Assembly (NCBI GenBank): GCA_003990745.1
Contig: RBNI01006446.1
Span: forward strand, 1-11,321
DNA: 11,321 nt
DNA from: Jimgerdemannia flammicorona
Taxonomy: Eukaryota > Mucoromycota > Endogonomycetes > Endogonales > Endogonaceae
Direction: 5' to 3'
Numbering within the stretch: the first letter of the stretch is position 1; each line of letters opens with the position of its first letter. A program made the translations under genes and the position numbers. Below the pieces are notes generated by a model that searched no databases, was not told the origin of the DNA, and worked only from the letters and a program-made list of their open reading frames with translations. Below are positions 112 to 11,106 of this stretch, in pieces.

Positions 112-461
112 TGTAATAGAATGAACGAGCAAGTGAACAGATGGGACGCAATGAGTGATGAGTGATCACATGACCCGGCAAATGATAACATCATCATATG
201 ATCGAGCATGGCATATAAATAATGAGTAACGAATGAATGAATGATGCAAATGAATGATATGAAAAATGATATTTAGCTTATCCCTGATAACTGACACCAT
301 AGCAACAGTTGCCATAGCTGCTGATCATTGCCTAGTAATTGAGGTCCTAATCACAAAGATGTTTTTTGCCAAAAACCACCTGACAAAGGTCGTGATCACA
401 AACCTCATTATAGTTATCAAATTAGTCACTCATACTTAGTCAGAAATTGCAGACCAACTTG

Positions 462-469
462 TATAAATA
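462..469 (+). promoter_or_regulatory. LTR TATA box (TATAAATA)
   Basis: TATAAATA is conserved at the same place in both LTRs (8803-8810 on the right) inside a conserved block, which makes it the best candidate for the element's RNA polymerase II core promoter. A second TATATAAA, also in both LTRs (644-651 and 8980-8987), is an alternative. Confidence 0.6.
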
Positions 470-488
470 CCCCCCAGTTTCTATCCGA

Positions 489-494
489 AATAAA
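489..494 (+). promoter_or_regulatory. AATAAA polyadenylation-like signal in 5' LTR
   Basis: AATAAA occurs 20 bases after the TATA box and is conserved in the 3' LTR (8830-8835). In the 3' LTR copy it could direct 3' end formation. Being so close to the TATA box, it would sit at or near the transcription start, which is compatible with a short distance between cap site and poly(A) signal. Confidence 0.4.
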
Positions 495-530
495 GCAGTT
501 TTAGTTCAGTTCTTGATACAAGAATCAAGT

Positions 531-550
531 CCCCCCCCCACACACACACA
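531..550. repeat. C-run and (CA)n microsatellite in the LTR
   Basis: Nine C followed by an alternating AC tract. The right LTR has seven C and a slightly longer AC tract (8872-8891), so the simple repeat has changed length since insertion. Confidence 0.85.
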
Positions 551-920
551 TTCCCCTGAGTCTTAGTAATGACATCTAAGTGACTCTAGTGTTTCTGACT
601 AAACTCCAGAAGTCTAGCTAACTTATGCCAGAACTGAGACTGGTATATAAATCCCCAAAGACTTAAGTAAATCTATTGAACCTAAATTCCAAGGCAAATT
701 CAGTCTGTGCATAGCAAAGAACAAGACTCTTGAAAGATAGGGCATACAAGAGAAAGACCTTTGAAATAGAAGGCACTACCACTACAACTACTTTTAAGTG
801 AGCACTTCCTCAAACTGAAGGCTTCTTGGTACACATTGTGTACTAAGTCTCTAAGTAATAGTCCACTTTCCTAATTATCCAAAGGATAAGAGAGGGGTAG
901 AAGTGAGAGTTATTACAACT

Positions 921-932
921 TGGTAGCAGCAG
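921..932 (+). promoter_or_regulatory. Primer binding site (tRNA, probably initiator Met)
   Basis: TGGTAGCAGCAG begins three bases after the LTR's terminal CA, the expected place for a minus-strand primer site. Its complement would be a tRNA ending GCTACCA, that is discriminator A73 and U72. An A1:U72 pair is characteristic of eukaryotic initiator tRNA-Met, a common primer for retrotransposons. Matching the host tRNA gene would confirm this; only the first dozen bases can be judged here. Confidence 0.65.
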
Positions 933-1018
933 ATTACTAGCTAAGAAGGCACCAAAGAACATACTCCTGAAGTTGGAACAAGACCAACCTTGGACAGGAG
1001 TAACCCCCAGAAACAACT

Positions 1019-1807
1019 GTGGATCCTCAAACCAGAGCCAGAGAAGCCCTTGCCATTAGAACCAGGTGGTACCAGGAAATCACAGACCCAAGGACCCACC
1101 AGCTTGTAATTGACCAGGCTTATAAGAATCTATACCAGGCCTTTAGGACATACCACCCAGGACTTAGGAATATTGTCAGCTGCCATAGGTTCTACAAACT
1201 CCTCCAAGGATACATTAGAACCACTAAGACCCCAGAATCTACTGCTGCAGCCACCCAGGATTTTTTAGATTATATCACACCCCCTGCTATAAGAGAAGTA
1301 GCTGCCAAGTAGATTACCTCTGACAGATATTATCATACCCCTACCAAGACCTCCCTCTATTACAGGCTAGTTGTATACTATGCCTCTGCCATAACTAGGT
1401 ATGAGAACAAGCAAGCAGGCCACCCATCCCCTACTGCTGAACAAGGAGCAGGCCCATCTACTCAGCCAGAGACTGATATCCTCTTTGAAGGACCTAGCCA
1501 GTATGTGGATGCACTATCTCATCAGAGAAGAGAGTCAGACGAAGACTCTACAGGTTACCAGTCTGACGATAGCCAATGAGGAACAGCAGGCCTAGGAATT
1601 TACCAAGGAACCACAGGTCAAGAAGATCAGACCCCAGAACCAACCCAGCCACCTATACAGAGATTTGGTTTACCCTCTCTCACAGGACTCTTTGACTTGA
1701 TATCCAGGAATCAAGTAACTCCAAGTTATACAGCACTACAACTCCATCAAGCAGAATAATCTTCAGGAGAATCTACCCCAACAGGCCCACCACTAATAGT
1801 CAACACA
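1019..1807 (+). pseudogene. Gag N-terminal extension (or separate ORF1)
   Basis: About 260 codons in the same frame as, and immediately before, the recognisable Gag. The first hundred residues (from MDPQTRAREA) look helical, with many Arg, Tyr and His and no domain I recognise. The second part is acidic, rich in Ser, Pro, Gln and Thr, and looks like a flexible linker. Stops at 1310 (TAG), 1577 (TGA) and 1757 (TAA) interrupt it. The frame is otherwise continuous into the Met at 1808, so I read it as part of Gag. An independent ORF ending near 1577 cannot be excluded. Typical Ty3/gypsy Gag proteins lack such a long leader. Confidence 0.6.
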
Positions 1808-2621
1808 ATGGTAGATGTCAACATTACAGCACTGACTACCCAGCTAGCAGCACTAGCAGAGATAGTAGGACAGATTACTGAACAGAACAAGCCAACCAAG
1901 ACCTTGTGAATCCCAACATTCAGTGGAAAAAACAGCAATATCGAAAACTTCATCAATGCAGTTGACACAGGCTACCGAGAAAACCAATGGAATGACAACC
2001 AAGTACCTATAGGAATGCTCACCAACAACCAGAACAGTACCCTCTAACAACTGTTTACCACATCAGCAGCACAAGTAGAAACAGTAGTCGCATTCTTTAC
2101 AGGAATAGCAGTTGAATTCTGGCAAACCTTGGAACAACACCCAGTAACTTGGGAAGCCCACCCCCAAGTCAATAGACAAGTACCTGCCAACAATAGACCA
2201 GATTGGAATGACTACAAAGCAGGCCCAGGACTCAAGGCCTTGCTACTGACCAAATTCTGAAATGCGGCCTATATATAAGAAACTTGGAACAAACTGTTCC
2301 AGATGAAGTTCCACAAGAATGGCAAAGAGGATCTAGAGACCTTTGCCACCAGAATAGATGCCTATCTCAAAACTGTTGGACTTTACCTACCAGGAGAACA
2401 ATTTGACCATCAATGGTACCAGAGCCAACCATCTCTTTACAGCCCTACCAGACTGGCTCACCCAGAAGATCAAGGAACAAGGACTTCTCCAAGGATGCCC
2501 CCACTACTTATAGTGCTTTGCCCAAGTACAAAGAAGAGCCCGCGAAATCCTTGCTGCACAAGCTCCACGAAATCAAGAACACAAGAAGGATAACCAAGAT
2601 AGGAGAAATCCTACCAGGAGA

Positions 2622-2669
2622 AATGATCAAAGGAATGATCAAAGATATGATCAAAGATATGATCAAAGG
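2622..2669 (+). repeat. Four tandem 12-bp units encoding (N/Y)DQR
   Basis: Four near-identical 12-base units (AAT/TAT GAT CAA AGA/G) encode NDQR, NDQR, YDQR, YDQR in the nucleocapsid tail just before the zinc knuckle. Such basic repeats can bind nucleic acid. The near-identity of the units suggests recent slippage or unequal exchange in the ancestor. Confidence 0.9.
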
Positions 2670-2741
2670 AACCAGTGAAATACCAGAGGACCCAGACCTC
2701 CCACTGAGAATGAAAAGAGACAGCTCTGTGAAAAGGGATTG

Positions 2742-2783
2742 TGCTTCATCTGCAAGAAGGCAGGACACATCTCAGTCAAATGT
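2742..2783 (+). other. CCHC zinc knuckle of nucleocapsid
   Basis: The codons read C-F-I-C-K-K-A-G-H-I-S-V-K-C, a perfect C-x2-C-x4-H-x4-C zinc knuckle, the RNA-binding signature of retroviral and retrotransposon nucleocapsid. All four ligands are intact. Confidence 0.95.
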
Positions 2784-2888
2784 CCTGAGAAGAGAAATAG
2801 ATCAGGCAAACCCAGTAACCAGAACATTACTGTTATTGGAGAAGGTCCAGAAAAAAAGAACCCTGAGAATGTCATTAAAGTACAGAAG

Positions 2889-3287
2889 ATATGGTACAAG
2901 GCTACCATCTCCACTAAGGCCCACCCAACCGATGCTGGATATGACCTCTACAGCAGCCAAGACCTCACTATTCCACCAAGTACCAATGCCACAGTGCGAA
3001 CAGGAATTGCAATGCAAGCTCCCAGAGGTACATACATCTGCCTTGCTGAGTGAAGCAGCCTAGCCAAAGAGTTCAACATTGGGCTAGGAGGAGGAGTAGT
3101 TGACCAAGGATTTACTGGCGAAATCCATGTCATCTTGCAAAATTTTGGAGACATATCATTTGAAGTCAAAGCAGGCCAAAGGATTGCCCAAGCAATCATC
3201 GAAGAAATCCATCAAGATCTCACCATTGAAGAAGTCCCCGAACTCTCCCAGACAGACCATAGCAAGAAAGAGTTTAGATCTACCAAC
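2889..3287 (+). pseudogene. dUTPase-like domain inside Gag-Pol
   Basis: About 133 residues match the trimeric dUTPase motifs in order. Motif 1 is DAGYDLYS (2931-2954). Motif 2 is [stop]-S-S-L-A (3051-3065), where the expected Arg codon is now TGA. Motif 3 is GVVDQGFTGE (3093-3122), with the catalytic Asp present and Phe at the usual Tyr position. Motif 4 is GQRIAQAII (3174-3200). Motif 5 is degenerate (3258-3287): F, S and T of the usual R-G-x-x-G-F-G-S-T-G remain, while two Gly have become Glu and Arg. The enzyme hydrolyses dUTP to dUMP and pyrophosphate and in retroviruses limits uracil in cDNA. It follows the CCHC knuckle by about 35 residues and precedes the protease in the same frame. 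Length fits the family (about 130-150). The motif-2 stop means no intact copy is made today. Confidence 0.88.
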
Positions 3288-3600
3288 AAACCTCCCAGTC
3301 AAAAGGTCACTACTATGAAAGAAGATGATGAAAACTGGTATAAGAGAATTGCAGATGGTTATGTACCATGTGGACGATGCTCTCATTCCATTCGAATGTA
3401 CTGTATAGAACATATTGGTGAATGTCATGCATGCCTCTCCAAAGTTTTCAAAATTCAATCCAAGAAGCATCAAGCTCAACAGACTGAGGAACCCAAACAA
3501 GACAACCCTCCTTGTGAAGGATGGGGAGAAACTGACTTTGAGGAGACTGACAGCAATTGGGACAACAATGAAGATGAAGAGCTCAATACTATCAAGAAGA
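3288..3600 (+). other. Cys-rich and acidic linker between dUTPase and protease
   Basis: An open stretch with no stop. Five cysteines at 3369, 3378, 3402, 3423 and 3432 form C-x2-C-x7-C-x6-C-x2-C with three His between them, looking like a small zinc-binding module. It is followed by a strongly acidic, Glu/Asp/Asn-rich segment up to the protease. I do not recognise the module as a named family. It could bind metal and nucleic acid or merely brace the polyprotein. Confidence 0.6.
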
Positions 3601-3605
3601 AGGAC

Positions 3606-4037
3606 AGTTGCATCAAGTTCACAGGCCAAGTCCACAGACAGAATGTCAATGTTTTGCTTGATAGTGGTACTACTGGAAACTATATCAGCACCAAGACTGC
3701 CAAGAGGATTGGAGCCTGAAGCAGACCAGCCACTGAGAAAAGAAGTTTTACCTTTGGTGATGGAAAAACTACACCATTGACCAAGATCTGTGAAGATCTT
3801 TTGCTCAAGATTGGCAAATATCAAGAGAAGTTGGACTTCAGCATTGTAGATCTCCCAGGACAAGATATTATCTTAGGAAAAGCCTGGTTGACCCAGCACA
3901 ACCCAGACATCAACTGGAGAACCAACAAGGTTAACCTGACCCATGAAGGCAGAAAAATCACCCTGACACCCCAGGAAGATACCAACTACCAAAGAATTGA
4001 AATCATCTCTGCCATTCAAATAAAAAGACTCTCTTGA
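3606..4037 (+). pseudogene. Retroviral-type aspartic protease domain
   Basis: The active-site loop L-L-D-S-G-T-T-G-N-Y-I-S has its catalytic D-S-G at 3660-3668. A second signature, D-I-I-L-G-K-A-W-L, lies at 3864-3890 and matches the hydrophobic-hydrophobic-Leu-Gly strand of retropepsins (D-x-I-L-G-x-x-W-L in Ty3/gypsy). The enzyme works as a dimer to mature Gag-Pol in the particle. A TGA at 3717-3719, between the active site and the flap region, splits the domain, and another TGA follows at 4035-4037. The catalytic residues are unchanged. Confidence 0.9.
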
Positions 4038-4139
4038 AAAAAGGGAAACACCTACTTCATCTGTACAGTACAAGAAGTCACTGAAGCTACAAGTAGCCCA
4101 ATTCCAACAGAAGCTCAAGAACTGTTTGAAGAATTCTAA

Positions 4140-4990
4140 GATGTATTCCAAGACCCCCAAGGACTTCCACCCAAGTGCCAAATCCAACATAGAATTGATC
4201 TTATTCCAGGATCTGAACCCCCATACAAGAGTATCTACCAACTGGCCCAACCTGAGCTCAAGACTCTCAAGGATGAATTGATCAAACTACTGACCCAAGG
4301 ATACATTGAACCCAGCTGCTCTCCATTTGGAGCCCCCATTCTATTTATCAAGAAGAAGGATGGCTCCCTACAAATGTGTATTGACTATAGAGCCTTCAAT
4401 AAGATCACTATCAAGAACCAGTATACCTTGCCCAGGATTGACAAGTTGCTACACCAAATCTTCAAGGCCAAGATCTTTTCTCTACTGGATTTGCGAAACA
4501 GCTACCACCAGATTCTCATTGATGAGAAGAACATTGAGAAGACAGCTTTCTGAATACAGTTTGAATACTACCAGTTTCAAGTCATGCCTTTTGAATTGAC
4601 CAATGCACCAGCAACATTCCAATATCTGATAAATGACATCTTTGGACCACTCCTCAATATCTGTGTCCTTGTATATATTGTTGATATACTAATCTACAGC
4701 AAAACAGTAGAGCTATATTACACCCACCTCAGACAAATACTGACCCTCCTACAAGAACACCAGCTCTATGCTAAGATGAGCAAATGCAAGTTCTACCAAG
4801 ACCAGATTGAATATCTAGGACACATCATCTCTGCTGAAGGAATCAATGTGGACCCCCAAAAGGTATCAGCCCTTAAGAATATCCCTATCCCCACTACCCT
4901 TAAGCTACTCCAGTGCTTTCTGGATATTGCCGGTTATTACCAAAGGTTTATCCAAGGATATTCTACTATTGTAGCTCTATTAATCAGCCT
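4140..4990 (+). pseudogene. Reverse transcriptase domain, active site altered
   Basis: Typical Ty3/gypsy RT blocks occur in order: G-Y-I-E-P-S-x-S-P-F-G-A-P (4299-4337), K-K-D-G-S-L-Q-M-C-I-D-Y-R, L-P-R-I-D, motif A F-S-L-L-D-L-R-N-S-Y-H-Q-I with catalytic Asp at 4488-4490, F-E-Y-Y-Q-F-Q-V-M-P-F-E-L-T-N-A-P, then motif C. Motif C should be Y-x-D-D but reads Y-I-V-D: the first Asp codon (4680-4682) is GTT. The next blocks (H-L-R-Q-I-L-T-L-L, K-C-K-F, Y-L-G-H-I-I-S, G-Y-Y-Q-R-F-I) complete fingers, palm, thumb and connection. A TGA at 4551-4553 and a TAA at 4137-4139 also break it. The enzyme would copy the RNA into cDNA from the tRNA primer. Confidence 0.95.
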
Positions 4991-5105
4991 GGCCTACAAA
5001 GGAGTAAACATCAAAGCTAAATGGACCCCCGAATGTACCTTAGCTATGGACCATCTCAAGAGACTCCTTACTGAGGCCCTAGTGCTAATTGCATCTGACC
5101 CTACC

Positions 5106-5456
5106 AGGCCATTCACCCTGACCACAGATGCCTCTGACATTGCTATTAGAGCAGTGCTCAGCCAAGAAGACCACCCAGTGGCCTACCTTTCCCAAAAGCT
5201 CAAGCCAGCTGAGACCCAGTATACCACCCATGAGAAGGAACTCTTGGCTATTGTCACTGCACTTCAGAAATGGTGCCATTTCCTCCTAGGACAGCCATTT
5301 GTGGCCTACACTGATCACCATACACTGTGGTATATTCACACACAGCCCATGCTGACCCACAGACAAGCCTGCTGGATAGAAATCATTGCCAACTTTGATA
5401 TGGAAATCAAGTATATTCTAGGCAAAACCAACTATGTGGCTGATGGTTTCTCCAGG
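5106..5456 (+). other. RNase H domain of Pol
   Basis: This is part of a 368-codon open stretch (4584-5690) and looks intact. The four acidic active-site positions are visible: Asp in T-T-D-A-S (5127), Glu in H-E-K-E-L-L-A (5238), Asp in Y-T-D-H-H-T-L (5313) and Asp in V-A-D-G-F-S-R (5442). The last is normally A-D-A-L-S-R in the family; Gly and Phe here are neighbouring changes. The domain would remove the RNA strand of RNA-DNA hybrids and leave the polypurine primer. Confidence 0.92.
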
Positions 5457-5609
5457 TATATGGAAGATGAACTTGTCTTTATGGTCGAGATAATTGGAGA
5501 CCTTATCCAGATGATCAAGGAAGGCTACCAGCAAGACAGCCCCCTGACGAAATTCCTTCAATTCTGCCAAGACCCAGAGGCCAAGGTTCCAGAACCCATG
5601 AGGCAAATG

Positions 5610-6810
5610 GCCAAGAGATTTATCTACCATGATGGACTTATCTACAGGGACTATGATAGAGTAGTTGTACCTAACAATGATACTCTGTGACTCAAGATCA
5701 TGCAGGAACTCTATGATACTCCTGCAGCAGGATACTTTGGTTTTGAAAAGACCTACAACCTCCTCTCAAAAGAGTTCTACTGGCCAAAGATGACCAAGGA
5801 CATCAAAGACTTTGTGGCCTCATGTGAGATGTGCCAAAGGTTCAAAAGTGATAACAAGCTACCAGCAGGACTCCTGCAATCCTTGCCTATCCCAAGCCAC
5901 AACTGGGATCAGATTGTAATGGACTTCATTGTCCAACTCCCTAAGACCAAGGCAGGATGGGGTACCATAGTGGTATTCATGAACCAACTAAGCAAACAAG
6001 CCTACTTTGCACCCACCAAGACCACTGCTATAGCACCAAAGATTGCCGAGATTTTTCTCAATCAAGTATTTAGGCTATATGGCATACCTAGTATCATTGT
6101 ATCTGACTGAGATGCCAAGTTCACAAGCAACTTCTGGAAGGCATTTTTCTCTCTCCATGGAACCAAGCTGAAGTTCTCTACTGCCTACCACCCTCAGACT
6201 GACAGTCAAACTGAGCGAACCAACAGGACTCTCAAACAGATGCTTAGTATCTTCTGCTGTTACAAGCAAAATGATTGGGATAAGTATCTAGCCCATACCA
6301 AGTTTGCCTACAACAACAGTCAGCAAACCTCCACAAAGAAGACTCCATTTTTCCTGAACCACGGTCAATACCCCAGGACCCCAAGTACTACTGTGAAATC
6401 AGCAGTCCCAGCAGCCCAAGATCTGGCTGAGATCATTTCTGACCTTATCCAAATAACAAGAGATGCTCTCATAGAAGCACAAGACTATCAGACCAAGTAT
6501 ACAAACTTGAAGCAAAGAGAAGCCTCCTACAATATTGGTGACATAGTCATGCTTAGAACAGACCACCTCCACCCTGACACCCTGGCACAACAACTAGCCA
6601 AGAAACTCCATGCCAGAAGAATTGGACCATACAAGATTATGGAAAAAATCAGCAAAGTCAACTACAAGTTTACAACTTTCTCATAATATCCAAGTACACC
6701 CAGTATTCCATATCAGCCAATTGGTGGACTATCATGAGAACCCATTCCCCAAGCATACAATTCCACCACCACCTCCAATTAGGATCAATGATCATGAGGA
6801 ATTCGAATTG
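5610..6810 (+). pseudogene. Integrase domain with GPY/F module
   Basis: The N-terminal zinc module should be H-H-C-C, but both His positions are Tyr (codons TAT 5712 and TAC 5733); the Cys pair C-E-M-C remains (5823-5834). The catalytic core has D (5922, M-D-F-I), D (6105, V-S-D, followed directly by TGA 6108-6110) and E (6213, Q-T-D-S-Q-T-E-R), with 35 residues between the last two, so DD35E is preserved. The GPY of GPY/F is at 6624-6632. A frame shift near 6669 separates it from H-P-V-F-H-I-S-Q-L (6697-6723), read in the next frame. A further TGA at 5688-5690 stands where Arg is common. The enzyme would insert cDNA with 5-bp staggering, agreeing with the duplication found. Confidence 0.93.
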
Positions 6811-7001
6811 AGGGAGTACTTGACCACAAGGTCCACAAATATCCCAAAGCAGTTAAGCACTTTTTCCTGATCAAGTGGAAGGGTTACCCTACCCATGATG
6901 CTATCTGAGAAAAAGAAGAAGCCCTGAAGAATGCACATGAAGCCCTTCAGGACTACATGGAAACACTTACTCTCCAGCAAAGAAAGGAACTGCAGCTCTA
7001 G
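6811..7001 (+). pseudogene. C-terminal chromodomain of integrase
   Basis: After a second shift near 6812, the pol frame resumes with V-L-D-H-K, then F-F-L-I-K-W-K-G-Y-P (6861-6890), then A-I-[stop]-E-K-E-E-A-L-K-N-A and D-Y-M-E-T. The order V-L-D-H-(K/R), hydrophobic-K-W-K-G-Y and W-E-x-E-x-x-L is the chromodomain pattern seen at the end of chromovirus integrases. The TGA at 6906-6908 replaces the W expected before E, as TGG to TGA would produce. Chromodomains bind methylated histone H3 and steer integration into heterochromatin; landing inside another repeat is consistent with that. The frame ends at TAG 6999-7001. Confidence 0.88.
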
Positions 7002-7532
7002 GATTTGGAGCACATAGTGAGCAGAAGGATACTACATATTTTATCCAGAAACATATAATACTGAACATTGCAGAAAAAGGAACACTATGGATAACCAACA
7101 AGAAGATACCTGAGCAAAAGAACAATCTAGTTTTATGCCATCTGTGTCATCTCTGCTGGGTGATGATGGACACTTCATATGGAACTTAGAAAAGCTGACA
7201 ATGTCGAAACCAGTCTAAGTCCATCTATATGACAGATATTGTTACTAGGAATTGCCTTGGATTATAAAAAAAGTCTATTTCTGAGAGGTTTGAACCCCCA
7301 GCCACGACAATGGGAGCCCTCGCCCTAGACAAGAATGGCCAGTTCTTGCAAATGCACTGACCAGACAAAAAAAAAAGTAGACCAAGATCTGTTAACTCTG
7401 TATAACCACAACTATGAGTGACGAGATCTTTGAAATCAAGATTTTCTTATGTGATCAGTACATGCCCTGCTTACAGCAACAGGTCATGTATTTTGCCAGA
7501 AAGTGTGACCAAAGGAAGGTTACATCAGATGG
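7002..7532. other. Non-coding spacer between pol and the third ORF
   Basis: No reading frame here looks like protein. The stretch has an ATTATAAAAAAA (7261-7271), an A10 run (7367-7376) and a minus-strand motif like a tRNA T-arm (7284-7303) without a convincing rest of a tRNA. It may hold splice or regulatory signals for the downstream ORF, but none can be called firmly. Confidence 0.6.
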
Positions 7533-8441
7533 GTGAATAAGTATAAATACCCTAGGCAAGAATACCCTGCAACTCTCATCTCCCTCTCCTCACAAAGAAA
7601 AGACAAGACAAGAATACCTACCACCCGCTGCCAAACTGCCCACTGTAGCCAGCCCCTCCTAAGCCAGATTGACCACCTCTTTGGACATATCCAGGTTGCT
7701 ATCCAAAGAAGGAATCACCACTCAGAGGCCCTTAACCTCTCCAGCCAGGACCTAGGACACTATGTCCTCAACTACTATGAAGTCATCGAAAGAGCCTACC
7801 TTGCCACCAGCTGCCTAGAGATCTGGCATGAATATGAGATTGGCCATCAACTCCTCTAATGGGCAAAGAACCTACCCATAGACCAAATCTCTGATTGGAC
7901 CCACCTGGATAGAAGCGAGTAAAGACTTGCTAAGAAGGTCCATCGAATCATGCGCCATGCACCCTTTGCAATCTCCAACCTCAACTATGTTCAACTGAAG
8001 GACTTCCAGAACCTCTCTTTCTTTGAGGTTGATGAACTAGAGATCAAGGTAGCCCAAGAAGCTAACTTCTGGATCACCCTCAAGTCCACTGACTGCAAAC
8101 CCTCCTGGAGCCCCCTCCTGAATAACAACCCAGACCAATGGCTCCAAGATCTCTCTGACCTCTTTGAAGAACCACCCATTTGAATGGATATTCCCAGGCA
8201 TAAGGACCAAGAATCCTACTTGGATGGCCCCGACTGCATCAGATGGAGAACCCCTACACCAGCACCCATCCCCATGCAAGAACCATTTGCAGACCTCATT
8301 GACTTCTCCATCCTGGACAATGAGCCATCAGCAACCACCCCCCCTACCACTAAAGATGATGGCAACAACCCTAAGGAGGATTCACCACCTTTCTCTCCCC
8401 TGGTTCTCAATTTCTGAATCAATGAGGATATTGATTTCTAA
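7533..8441 (+). pseudogene. Third ORF downstream of pol, unknown function
   Basis: One frame reads through about 300 codons from a GTG at 7533 to TAA 8439-8441, interrupted at TAA 7857, TAA 7920, TGA 8181 and TGA 8415. Stop density and type resemble those in gag-pol, so it is probably a real ORF decayed by the same process. The N-terminal part is basic. The middle is helical and aromatic (L-N-Y-Y-E-V-I-E-R-A-Y, I-W-H-E-Y-E-I). The end is acidic and Pro-rich with D/E-L-F/I repeats (L-Q-D-L-S-D-L-F-E-E-P-P; F-A-D-L-I-D-F-S-I-L-D). I see no signal peptide or membrane segment, so it is not env-like. No family is recognised. It ends just before the polypurine tract. The true start is unknown because no in-frame ATG occurs near the 5' end; GTG 7533 may be a mutated ATG, or the ORF may be reached by splicing. 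Confidence 0.6.
7542..7549 (+). promoter_or_regulatory. TATA-like box at the start of the third ORF
   Basis: TATAAATA lies at the beginning of the third ORF inside GTATAAATACCC, the same 12 bases that surround the 5' LTR's TATA box (461-472). It could be an internal promoter, or coding sequence that happens to match, because it falls within the open frame (K-Y-K-Y-P). Confidence 0.3.
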
Positions 8442-8452
8442 GGTGGGAAGGA
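8441..8452 (+). promoter_or_regulatory. Polypurine tract
   Basis: AGGTGGGAAGGA, purine except for one T, lies directly before the TG of the 3' LTR. This is the standard position and composition for the plus-strand primer left by RNase H. Confidence 0.8.
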
Positions 8453-9253
8453 TGTAATAGAATGAATGAGCAAGTGAATAGATGGGATATAACAAGCGAC
8501 AAGCAATCACGTGACCTGGTGAACGATGATGTCATCATACGATTGAGTACGGCATATGAATAATGAGTGATGAACAAATGAATGATGCAAATGAATGGTA
8601 TGAAAAATAATATTTAGCTTATCCCTGATAACCGGCACCACAGCAACAGTTGCCACAGCTGCTGATCATTGCCTAGTAATTGAGGTCCTAATCACAAAGA
8701 TGTTTTTTGCCAAAAACCACCTGACAAAGGTCACAATCACAAACCTCATTATAGTTACTAAATTAGTCACTCATACTTAGTCAGAAATCGCAGACCAACT
8801 TGTATAAATACTCCCCAGTTTCTATCTAAAATAAAGCAGTTTTAGTTCAGTCCTTGATACAAGAATCAAGTCCCCCCCACACACACACACATTCCCCTGA
8901 GTCTTAGTAATGACATCTAAGTGACTCTAGTGTTTCTGACTAAACTCCAGAAGTCTAGCTAACTTCTACCAGAGACCGGTATATAAATCCCCAAAGACTT
9001 AAGTAAACCCATTGAACCTGAATTCCAAGGCGAATTCAGTCTGTGCATAGCAAAGAACAAGACACTTGAAAGATAGGACACACAAGAGAAAGACCTTTGA
9101 AACAGAAGGCACTGCCACTACAACTACTTTTAAGTGAGCACTTCCTCAAACTGAAGGCTTCTTGGTACACATTGTGTACTAAGTCTCTAAGTAATAGTCC
9201 ACTTCCCTAATTATCCAAAGGATAAGAGAGGGATAGAAGTGAGAGTTATTATA
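8453..9253 (+). repeat. 3' long terminal repeat
   Basis: The 801-bp repeat starts TGTAATAGAATGAA and ends GTTATTATA, so its terminal CA has become TA. It aligns with 112-917. TATAAATA (8803-8810), AATAAA (8830-8835) and TATATAAA (8980-8987) are conserved. Differences from the 5' copy are almost all transitions and cluster in the first 165 bp. Confidence 0.95.
8507..8514 (+). promoter_or_regulatory. Palindromic E-box TCACGTGA in U3
   Basis: TCACGTGA is a perfect palindrome of the type bound by fungal bHLH factors (CACGTG). The 5' LTR has TCACATGA at the matching place (166-173), as expected if its central CpG was deaminated. The site is only a candidate; no binding can be shown from sequence. 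Confidence 0.3.
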
Positions 9254-9258
9254 GTGGA
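9254..9258. repeat. Right target-site duplication (GTGGA)
   Basis: The five bases after the 3' LTR read GTGGA, against GTGAA on the left. The right copy fits the LINE reading frame, so GTGGA is probably the original target and the left copy carries the change. Confidence 0.75.
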
Positions 9259-11106
9259 GGTCTCAGAGATTGTGGACATGTTGGGAGAGATATTGGAACA
9301 ATGGCAGGCTCTCTGGCAGGATGTTGGAGACAATGTTGAGGATACAGTTCTTTGGGAGGATAATGACAATATAGTGAACAATTGGTCAGTGACAGCACTA
9401 CCCGAGATAGAGAAGATGGTCATGGGAGAGATATCATTAGATGAAGTATTGGAGGGAGGTATTGAGGAAGATACAGACTAGCTCATTGCCTGGGGAGAAT
9501 GGGCTGCCCTGGGAATTCTGGAAGGAGTTCCAGACAGAGTTTGGTGGCTGGTTAATAGAGATGGCTAACTTTATGTTGAAGGAGGGCAGCTGGATCAGTA
9601 ATGGTTTCTTGGGATTAGTTTTCCTTCTATATAAGAAAAAGAGAGATCAACAAGTATGGTATAATTGGTGATCTATCTTGTTGTTGAATGTAGATAGAAA
9701 GTTGGTCTCAAAGATTCTGGCAGAGAAGATGTAGCAGTATATTAGTGCACTAGTTGGGGAAGAGCAGCAAGGCTTTGTCAAGAGGAGGCAGATCAGAGAT
9801 AGTACTGCTTGGGTGTAGAATGTCTTAGAGAGCTATAGGAGCTGGTAGGTAGATGGCCAGATGGTCTTTTTGGATCAAGAGAAGGCCTATGACAGAGTGC
9901 AGTGGAGTTATCTAGAGGCTGTTCTGATAAGGGTAGGGTTTGGTGTAGCAGAGGCAGGGTGATTGATGGGCCTAGTACAGAGAGATACCAAGCAGCAGTT
10001 ATGATGAATGAATGGAGTGGACCAGAGTTTATCTTGGAGTGAGGTGTACCACAGAGAGACCCTCTCTCCCCCCTCCTTTATGTGCTCTCTTTGGAGTCTT
10101 TGCTGGTATAGCTGAAGAGACAGCTTGTTGGACTATAGATGGGTAATGTGGTCTGGAAGCTGGGTGCTTTCACAGATGACATGGTGGTAGGGTTGAGTAG
10201 TTTGGAGGATGTAGACCTCCTACAGAAAGGGGTTGGATAGTATGAGAGGCTGGCAGGGGCTAAGTTGAATTGGGGCAAATGTGAGACAATAGAACTTAGT
10301 ACTCGTCTGGGGGTATATAGACAATTTGGACAATTGGTGGCCCCAGGAAATGCTGTTCAGTATTTGGGTATTTGGTTCTCAGTATATAAGACAGTTCTAC
10401 TGAAGGAGTGGTGGTATGGATTGATTCAGAAGTTAGAAGGTACTTAGACTGGTTGGTCAGAGAGGAGTTTCTCCTTAATAGGTAGAATAGTGGTTTTGAA
10501 TATATATTGGTTACCTAAATTGTAGTATCTAGGATATCACTTGGATTTTCCTGGGTGGGTGGTACAGTGGCTGAAGAAGATTATAGAAGAATGGTTGTGG
10601 CATAGGAAGCGGCTGCAGATTGGGTAGAACATAGTGGTAATGAGGATAGCTGATAGAGGCCTGGGGTTGGTGGACTTCAGATACCAGCTGAAGATACTTT
10701 GGGATTGGTGGAGTTGCTGACTGATAGTACTAGGTGAGAAGGATTGGGGCAGACTGGTCATGGACAATTGGGAGGTTTGGTTCTGCCCCCATGGTGAGGT
10801 TTGGAAGGATATGTGGGGTCTGCTTCAGGTCAGCAATATAGGTAGACTGCAGTTTAAGGGGTTCTGGTTGGGTATTGTTGAGGCCTGGCTAGCTATGGAG
10901 TTGGTGGAACCAGAGATAGAGGTTGGTGTGAACTCAGTGCAGAGATGGTGGTGACTAGGAGAACTCCACATTGGTGGCCATTGCTTGAAGGAATACTCAC
11001 TGGTTGAGGTAATGGAGTAGATCAGGTCTGGTCCTTTAGAGAGATGGCTGGCTGGTTGACAGAGAGCAGGATTTGGTAAAAACTGAGAGTAGGACTGAAT
11101 ATGGAG
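9254..11106 (+). pseudogene. LINE (non-LTR retrotransposon) ORF2 reverse transcriptase, decayed
   Basis: The frame continues from 25-111. A linker (V-S-E-I-V-D-M-L-G-E-I-L) leads to S-L-P-G-E-N-G-L-P-W-E-F-W-K, the usual start of a LINE RT, after a frame shift near 9460. S-I-L-L-L-N-V-D-R-K-L and Q-Q-G-F-V-K follow. Motif A is V-F-L-D-Q-E-K-A-Y-D-R-V (Asp at 9873). After a shift near 10041, motif B is G-V-P-Q-R-D-P-L-S-P-L-L-Y (10043-10081) and motif C is A-F-T-D-D (Asp pair 10175-10180), where T replaces the usual A. Then L-N-W-G-K-C, Y-L-G-I-W-F and a thumb-like region. The remaining frame runs to about 11106. Stops are many and mostly TAG. It looks like an L1-type RT; the clade is uncertain. 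The end is cut by another LTR element. Confidence 0.88.

Follow-up and report, generated by a model that had tools for sequence, protein, structure and literature searches.

dUTPase is the enzyme that removes dUTP, a DNA-damaging building block. dUTPase domains in fungal gypsy elements have been in print since 2008, and the element described here is a further case; the find is therefore real, but not new in kind. For Postia placenta, the sections of PMC2864245 that deal with these elements describe a dUTPase at the amino-terminus of Pol in PosPlaTy3-3, at the carboxyl-terminus of Pol in PosPlaTy3-4, and between protease (PR) and reverse transcriptase (RT) in PosPlaTy3-5. The dUTPase elements of P. 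chrysosporium (Novikova and Blinov 2008) and Tuber melanosporum (Tmt1, Riccioni 2008) are cited in the same sections, where the domain is regarded as seemingly acquired independently from different sources. Judged by the published description, the place in PosPlaTy3-3 is that of the element analyzed here, and the slot in PosPlaTy3-5 is that of two further families of the same genome (E and F, see below). The bdelloid rotifer elements Juno, Vesta, and TelKA are likewise LTR retrotransposons with a dUTPase, and Juno has an extra zinc knuckle beside it; as far as the layout is described in PMC5408684, they differ in that the dUTPase lies between PR and RT, a chromodomain is lacking, and the hosts are animals. 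In Entomophthora muscae, PF00692 is enriched along with retroelement protease families and linked to transposable elements, according to an excerpt of PMC11105155. Outside of fungi, the betaretroviral NC-dUTPase (MMTV p30, M-PMV) occupies the same place between nucleocapsid (NC) and PR, and it is described in part of PMC4531489 as a trans-frame product that is joined to NC. According to a passage in PMC2774666, the dUTPases of betaretroviruses and of fungal chromoviruses resemble each other.

The window, i.e., the whole stretch of 11,321 nucleotides of Jimgerdemannia flammicorona DNA that was analyzed, had been proposed from its letters alone to encode a dUTPase-like domain at 2889..3287, with five motifs in order in the Gag-Pol frame, between the CCHC knuckle and the protease of a fungal chromovirus. 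HMM profile searches bore out the domain. With its three TGA codons translated as X, the frame 2679-4040 matched PF00692 with 97.1 bits (E 8.9e-28, cut-off 22 bits) over residues 75-202, which correspond to 2901-3284 of the window. The open pieces each matched PF00692 alone (2679-3053 with 36.1 bits, 3054-3719 with 50.2 bits), and chance is excluded as the source of the match. The five motif stretches in Table 1 were assigned by what we take to be the classical dUTPase motif definitions. Their order and frame were as proposed, and so was the site of the domain: the CCHC knuckle (residues 21-37 of the frame starting at 2679), motifs 1-5, and the protease (residues 303-423, including LLDSGTTGN at 3654-3680) share a single frame. 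Motif 2 of the window copy is broken by the TGA at 3051, and its motif 5 is altered, reading KKEFRSTN, while the other copies mostly have KKGFGSTN. In a comparison with 177635 distinct PDB sequences, 73 distinct chains matched. The best solved structure was yeast Dut1 (93.7 bits, E 1.2e-25), and such cellular dUTPases scored above the retroviral chains of EIAV (57.9 bits) and FIV (44.8 bits). M-PMV was absent among the best 60 of the 73 chains matching this domain, and it scored low against the dUTPase of another family of the same genome (family C, 47.4 bits). A shared origin with the retroviral dUTPases was not supported by these PDB scores; the trees reported below contain no retroviral rows.

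Table 1. Positions of the element's features in the window, and of the linker module in two other loci.
Feature	Position	Strand	Remark
5′ target-site duplication GTGAA	107..111	.	partner GTGGA at 9254-9258, 4/5 equal
5′ LTR, 806 bp, TGTAATAG...TTATTACA	112..917	+	
Primer-binding-site-like TGGTAGCAGCAGATTA	921..936	+	three bases past the LTR; sequence reading
Gag region (broken)	1004..2670	+	
CCHC zinc knuckle of nucleocapsid	2742..2783	+	best profile 19.3 bits, below the cut-off of 20.8
dUTPase domain PF00692	2901..3284	+	profile search, PDB search; TGA at 3051
dUTPase motif 1	2934-2963		
dUTPase motif 2	3042-3065		
dUTPase motif 3	3090-3125		
dUTPase motif 4	3174-3200		
dUTPase motif 5	3261-3290		
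Cys/His linker module	3333..3455	+	no Pfam family above cut-off
Aspartic protease (RVP_2)	3585..3947	+	Pfam; TGA at 3717
Reverse transcriptase (RVT_1)	4347..4829	+	Pfam; TGA at 4551
RNase H (PF17917/PF17919)	5022..5396	+	Pfam
Integrase region, H2C2 zinc-binding to Tf2-1-like SH3 domain	5694..6668	+	Pfam
Chromodomain, one TGA at 6906	6807..6965	+	read in the sequence
Extra downstream ORF (broken)	7509..8448	+	no Pfam family above cut-off
Polypurine-like tract AAGGTGGGAAGGA	8440..8452	+	sequence reading
3′ LTR, 801 bp, ends TA	8453..9253	+	
Linker module in other loci	L063 945-1094; L065 1792-1941		

The element is a Ty3/gypsy chromovirus, and this part of the sequence-only reading was confirmed by the Pfam domain order together with the chromodomain. 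The order of the parts is Gag, CCHC knuckle, dUTPase, linker, PR, RT, RNase H, integrase, chromodomain, and an extra open reading frame. The PR-RT-RH-IN order was thus found, with the integrase recognized by its zinc-binding and SH3 domains; the integrase core between these two gave no Pfam match in the pieces searched. The chromodomain of the window is broken, and that of a relative (L056) matched PF00385 with 51.4 bits. The N-terminal extension of Gag (1004-1757) is in the same frame as the capsid part downstream, and a relative of part of it was found in family B within an open Gag-dUTPase frame of 803 amino acids. Short repeats of a GATCAAAG-like unit occupy 2610-2680, upstream of the CCHC knuckle, and the matching stretch of the copy L051 encodes an Arg/Asp/Gln-rich run. 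The extra open reading frame showed a silent-site excess between two to three copies (informative columns at codon positions 1/2/3 of 3/3/20 and 10/5/20), which suggests that it is protein-coding; the wording "additional open reading frame" appears in a figure legend of PMC2864245.

The window copy is dead. As a decayed member of a large family, it can no longer make its dUTPase: the pol frame (2679-6999) contains 13 stops, one of them within motif 2, and the frame shifts inside Gag. The two LTRs differ by 58 transitions (18 of CpG type) and 3 transversions in 801 aligned columns (K2P 0.082). The window has far fewer CpG than expected (observed/expected 0.11) and no raised TpA (0.79), and therefore the decay looks more like the methylation type than like classical RIP.

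The genome (134.8 Mb, 7754 contigs) was searched for further copies of this family, which was named family A. At least 150 PF00692 matches were above the cut-off when the best 150 of 5391 candidates were scored. From 150 listed places, 30 RT-anchored family A loci were obtained, including the window. The dUTPase was at least partly present in 25 of these 30, counting three loci in which it was partial or split (L028, L033, L036). In four of the five remaining loci the contig stops before the expected place (L022, L035, L047, and L037, which is also devoid of PR). In the fifth (L044, 2446-2690) about 170 bases of the place are present and unrelated sequence adjoins; because the homology breaks off inside the linker, this locus was judged to be truncated or rearranged. 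Relatives wholly without the segment, which had been named beforehand as the case against the domain, did not occur. Another copy, L051, has an unbroken series of Gag, NC, dUTPase, linker, and PR in a single open frame of 601 amino acids, which is still open at the contig end. NC, dUTPase, and PR of this copy share one frame, and therefore a gag/pro frame change of the betaretroviral type is absent. The betaretrovirus-like placement suggested earlier consequently holds for the position, but not for a trans-frame origin.

The sequence-only reading had also called for copies with an intact motif 2, and these were found. At the position of the motif 2 arginine, 29 distinct family A sequences, the window among them, had R in 14 cases, a stop in 11, and Q in 4; this set favors intact copies, because ten of the fetched loci were picked for their likeness to yeast Dut1. 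In the same set the Asp of motif 1 was kept in 26/29 sequences, the Asp of motif 3 in 29/29, and the second Gln of motif 4 as well as the Phe of motif 5 in 28/29 each. At two places family A has other residues than those that we take to be classical, namely E in place of P in motif 2 and F in place of Y in motif 3. These two replacements may lower the activity of the family A domain.

To characterize selection on the domain, differences were counted by codon position (1/2/3), with CpG-type differences set aside. The 29 family A dUTPase sequences showed pairwise differences of 3118/2599/5651, with transversions of 168/166/1054, and informative columns of 10/11/26. The informative columns were 7/2/25 for the family A RT (32 sequences), 12/5/31 for its PR (31 sequences), and 11/7/21 for its linker (29 sequences). 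For the dUTPases of other families they were 2/3/30 in B (3 sequences), 1/1/8 in C (10), 7/3/14 in D (11), 6/0/6 in E (10), and 8/3/25 in F (2 sequences); the values for B and F come from only 3 and 2 copies, respectively. The third-position excess in the dUTPase was comparable to that in RT and PR, being milder in A (10/11/26) than in the RT of that family (7/2/25), and E (6/0/6) had no excess over position 1. The E linker showed no third-position excess either (columns 1/2/0, 11 sequences; pairs 201/176/131). The counts are not independent events, because the copies share ancestry. The third-position excess points to past purifying selection on the dUTPase; on this reading, the domain was kept as a protein while the families spread. 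Conservation at the protein level appears clearest in A, B, C, and F, and least in E.

Taken as a whole, the domain is very probably a homotrimeric-type dUTPase domain of the chromovirus Gag-Pol, located in the slot between NC and PR in one frame, that would hydrolyze dUTP in the particle. The observed parts are the homology, the order of the motifs, the frame shared with NC and PR, the many copies, and the third-position excess, to which the predicted fold of a relative is added. This relative, a metagenome protein (P0130), is 94% identical over 61% of the query, and its predicted protein of 485 amino acids has no stop. The model of this protein has an overall pLDDT of 60.9 and is confident in the dUTPase part (block means of 88-97 over residues 291-400), and Foldseek aligned it with human dUTPase (E 2.1e-15, TM 0.84 by target length). 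A dUTPase fold is thus predicted from the model of P0130, not from the window's own protein.

The domain would be made as part of the Gag-Pol polyprotein, between nucleocapsid and protease, and after proteolysis, or still joined to NC, it would hydrolyze dUTP within the virus-like particle. Removal of dUTP beside RT would keep dUMP/uracil out of the element's cDNA, which could be of benefit when reverse transcription takes place in cells, or during phases, in which the dUTP/dTTP ratio is poor. We infer this role from what retroviral dUTPases are known to do, and by this analogy dUTP removal beside RT would be the most likely one. The domain could instead have been retained for a non-catalytic job, such as assembly, Gag-Pol trimerization, or contact with RNA or protein, and hydrolyze no dUTP. 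The departure of family A from the classical motifs at two places would fit this, and there is a precedent in bovine immunodeficiency virus, for which PMC4261571 reports a lentiviral protein, related to dUTPase, that is important although it lacks activity. A non-catalytic job is nevertheless improbable, given the retention of the motif 1, 3, 4, and 5 residues in at least 26 of the 29 family A sequences, and given that the copies read from families B-G also keep most motif letters, with both F rows having R in motif 5 (GFRS or EFRS).

Seven gypsy families (A-G) were recognized in the genome, and each has a dUTPase. A-C were recognized mainly via the dUTPase, D-G via RNase H and without regard to the dUTPase. 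In families B (L053, L054, L057) and C (L052, L055, L058-L060) the order is NC-dUTPase-PR as in A, to which they have 31.7-38.5% identity in the dUTPase and about 48-53% in RT. In E and F the order is PR-linker-dUTPase-RT, and for D and G a distance of about 480-510 bases separates the dUTPase from the downstream RT; no PR was found in D and G within the stretches examined. The dUTPase-blind sample comprised 30 stretches upstream of RNase H places, i.e., 6 from 150 listed places, 20 hand-picked from the same list, and 4 of family G from another 150 listed places. The dUTPase was found in 5/6, 19/20, and 4/4 of these, together in 28/30. The two misses were L066, for which the stretch had been cut on the wrong side, and L067, a G copy with a stretch without gypsy homology. 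The possibility raised by L067 that G is a gypsy family without a dUTPase was rejected, as four other G copies carry one. Rare families without a dUTPase may exist outside of the listed RNase H places.

The linker module, with the pattern KI..GY.P.G.C.H...MY......C, is common to A, B, E, and F. Whichever of the two comes first, dUTPase or PR, the module separates them (dUTPase-linker-PR or PR-linker-dUTPase). In the C copy that was read (L055) the linker was not found, and PR follows directly after the dUTPase. The linker module and the presence of a dUTPase in all seven families are observations made here. No report of the linker, or of a dUTPase in every sampled gypsy family of one genome, was met in the literature search, which had been aimed at neither. 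In family G (L171, L174) a stretch of the form IPIRNLGFEVITIPKGTKLGYFEP was seen between dUTPase and RT.

The history of the domain was addressed with trees of RT and of the dUTPase. In the RT tree, A+B+C were separated from D+E+F with 100/99 support, and likewise from D+E+F+G (100/99). The groupings A+D and B+E+F were both rejected for RT (p 0.004 each), and A+C and B+C had p values of 0.217 and 0.087. The dUTPase trees were different. A, the partial row P0002, and D were grouped with 96/97 (29 and 31 rows) and 93/83 (57 rows); B+E+F were grouped with 80/80 (29 rows) and 96/73 (57 rows), and together with G, but weakly, in the 31-row tree. C was placed with P0131 near the eukaryotes in all three dUTPase trees, A was outside of the eukaryote part in all three, and the best trees showed at least three separate groups of transposable elements (TE). 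The disagreement between RT and dUTPase trees is suggestive of repeated gain or exchange; it does not settle the matter, because the branches are long and the alignment has only about 145 columns.

Several acquisitions or exchanges, with one dUTPase type in A+D, another in B+E/F, and a eukaryote-like one in C, against the RT tree, would explain this pattern, and we regard this reading as about evenly poised between right and wrong. In the 31-row set, the RT-like groupings of the dUTPases were rejected (A+B+C+P0131+P0002 with p 0.0003, D-G with p 0.036). In the 29-row set, A+B+C (1e-6), A-F (1e-18), and A plus yeasts (0.0004) had very low values, but these three tests are unfair to A or C, because P0002 and/or P0131 were left out; A+B+D+P0002 had 0.073. 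The widest set weighs against several acquisitions. With 57 rows, none of six groupings was rejected at 0.05, neither A+P0002+B+C+P0131 (p 0.112) nor A+B+P0002 (0.28), and A+D+P0002+B+E+F (0.109) and B+E+F+C+P0131 plus eukaryotes (0.365) also stood. This set includes 14/66 and 10/14 loci from two alignment scans, with dUTPases of viral contigs and prokaryotes, and it is biased because the selection of these loci relied on motifs that A and D have in common with them. The long branches, the partial P0002, and the composition of the trees, which were built without Pezizomycotina, Basidiomycota, or retroviral rows, weigh against several acquisitions as well.

A single old acquisition that predates the split of the gypsy families, with later moves between the two slots, is possible, if somewhat doubtful. 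It would account for the dUTPase in all seven families, four of which were found without regard to it, and for the linker module beside the dUTPase in A, B, E, and F, and one clade of all TE with P0002 was not rejected in the 57-row tree (p-AU 0.093). Against it stand the three or more TE groups of the best trees and the smaller sets, in which one TE clade was rejected (29 rows: p 0.0002 without P0002, a test unfair to A, and 0.041 with it; 31 rows with P0002: 0.024). That family A recently took up the dUTPase gene of its own host fungus is hardly credible, even with 45-49% raw identity of A to the tabled cellular eukaryote dUTPases (42% to D) and a borderline value for A+C+P0002+P0131 plus eukaryotes in the 57-row set (p 0.054), since in the 31-row set A+P0002 plus ten hosts was rejected (p 0.003), the same with C and P0131 had a low value (p 0.015), A is placed outside of the eukaryotes, and an older event is indicated by the many copies and by how diverse the family is. 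The same row set rejected the capture of a gene from a yeast-like host (A+P0002 plus yeasts, p-AU 0.0007). Of the choice between recent and old capture that the tree had been expected to make, the recent yeast-like capture has thus fallen, and the outcome for a single TE clade, like that of the tests for several acquisitions, varies with the row set. The host's own dUTPase gene was not recognized among the fetched candidates that were inspected (best 150 of 5391 and of 4943 candidates scored).

Only few retrotransposon dUTPases have been described, and the element adds a large, well-populated case to them. Each of the gypsy families sampled from this genome had a dUTPase, in two of the slots known from another fungus. 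It is a tentative and rather unlikely generalization that practically the whole gypsy superfamily here carries, and perhaps needs, a dUTPase, in at least two slots and with the Cys/His linker in four families, and that its gain or exchange between long-split RT lineages happened repeatedly. If this were true, every successful LTR element would have had to cope with a genome-wide pressure, either a large pool of dUTP in resting hyphae or an attack on cDNA that is based on uracil. If repeated gain or exchange were true, this genome would offer a natural setting in which to ask what LTR elements need a dUTPase for. Parts of the literature discuss such a need for viruses in non-dividing cells.

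An IMG/VR scan with the NC-dUTPase-PR stretch yielded no relative, and protein searches returned 2 proteins with the element stretch and 8 with the window segment. Poly-A occupies positions 1-24 of the window, at the contig end, and is perhaps an assembly edge. The 3′ flank (9255-10100) contains the decayed remains of a reverse transcriptase, apparently of the non-LTR kind, that matched RVT_1 with 27.2 bits (E 3.9e-6), under the cut-off of 29.6; because of this piece, the element appears to lie beside or inside another retroelement.
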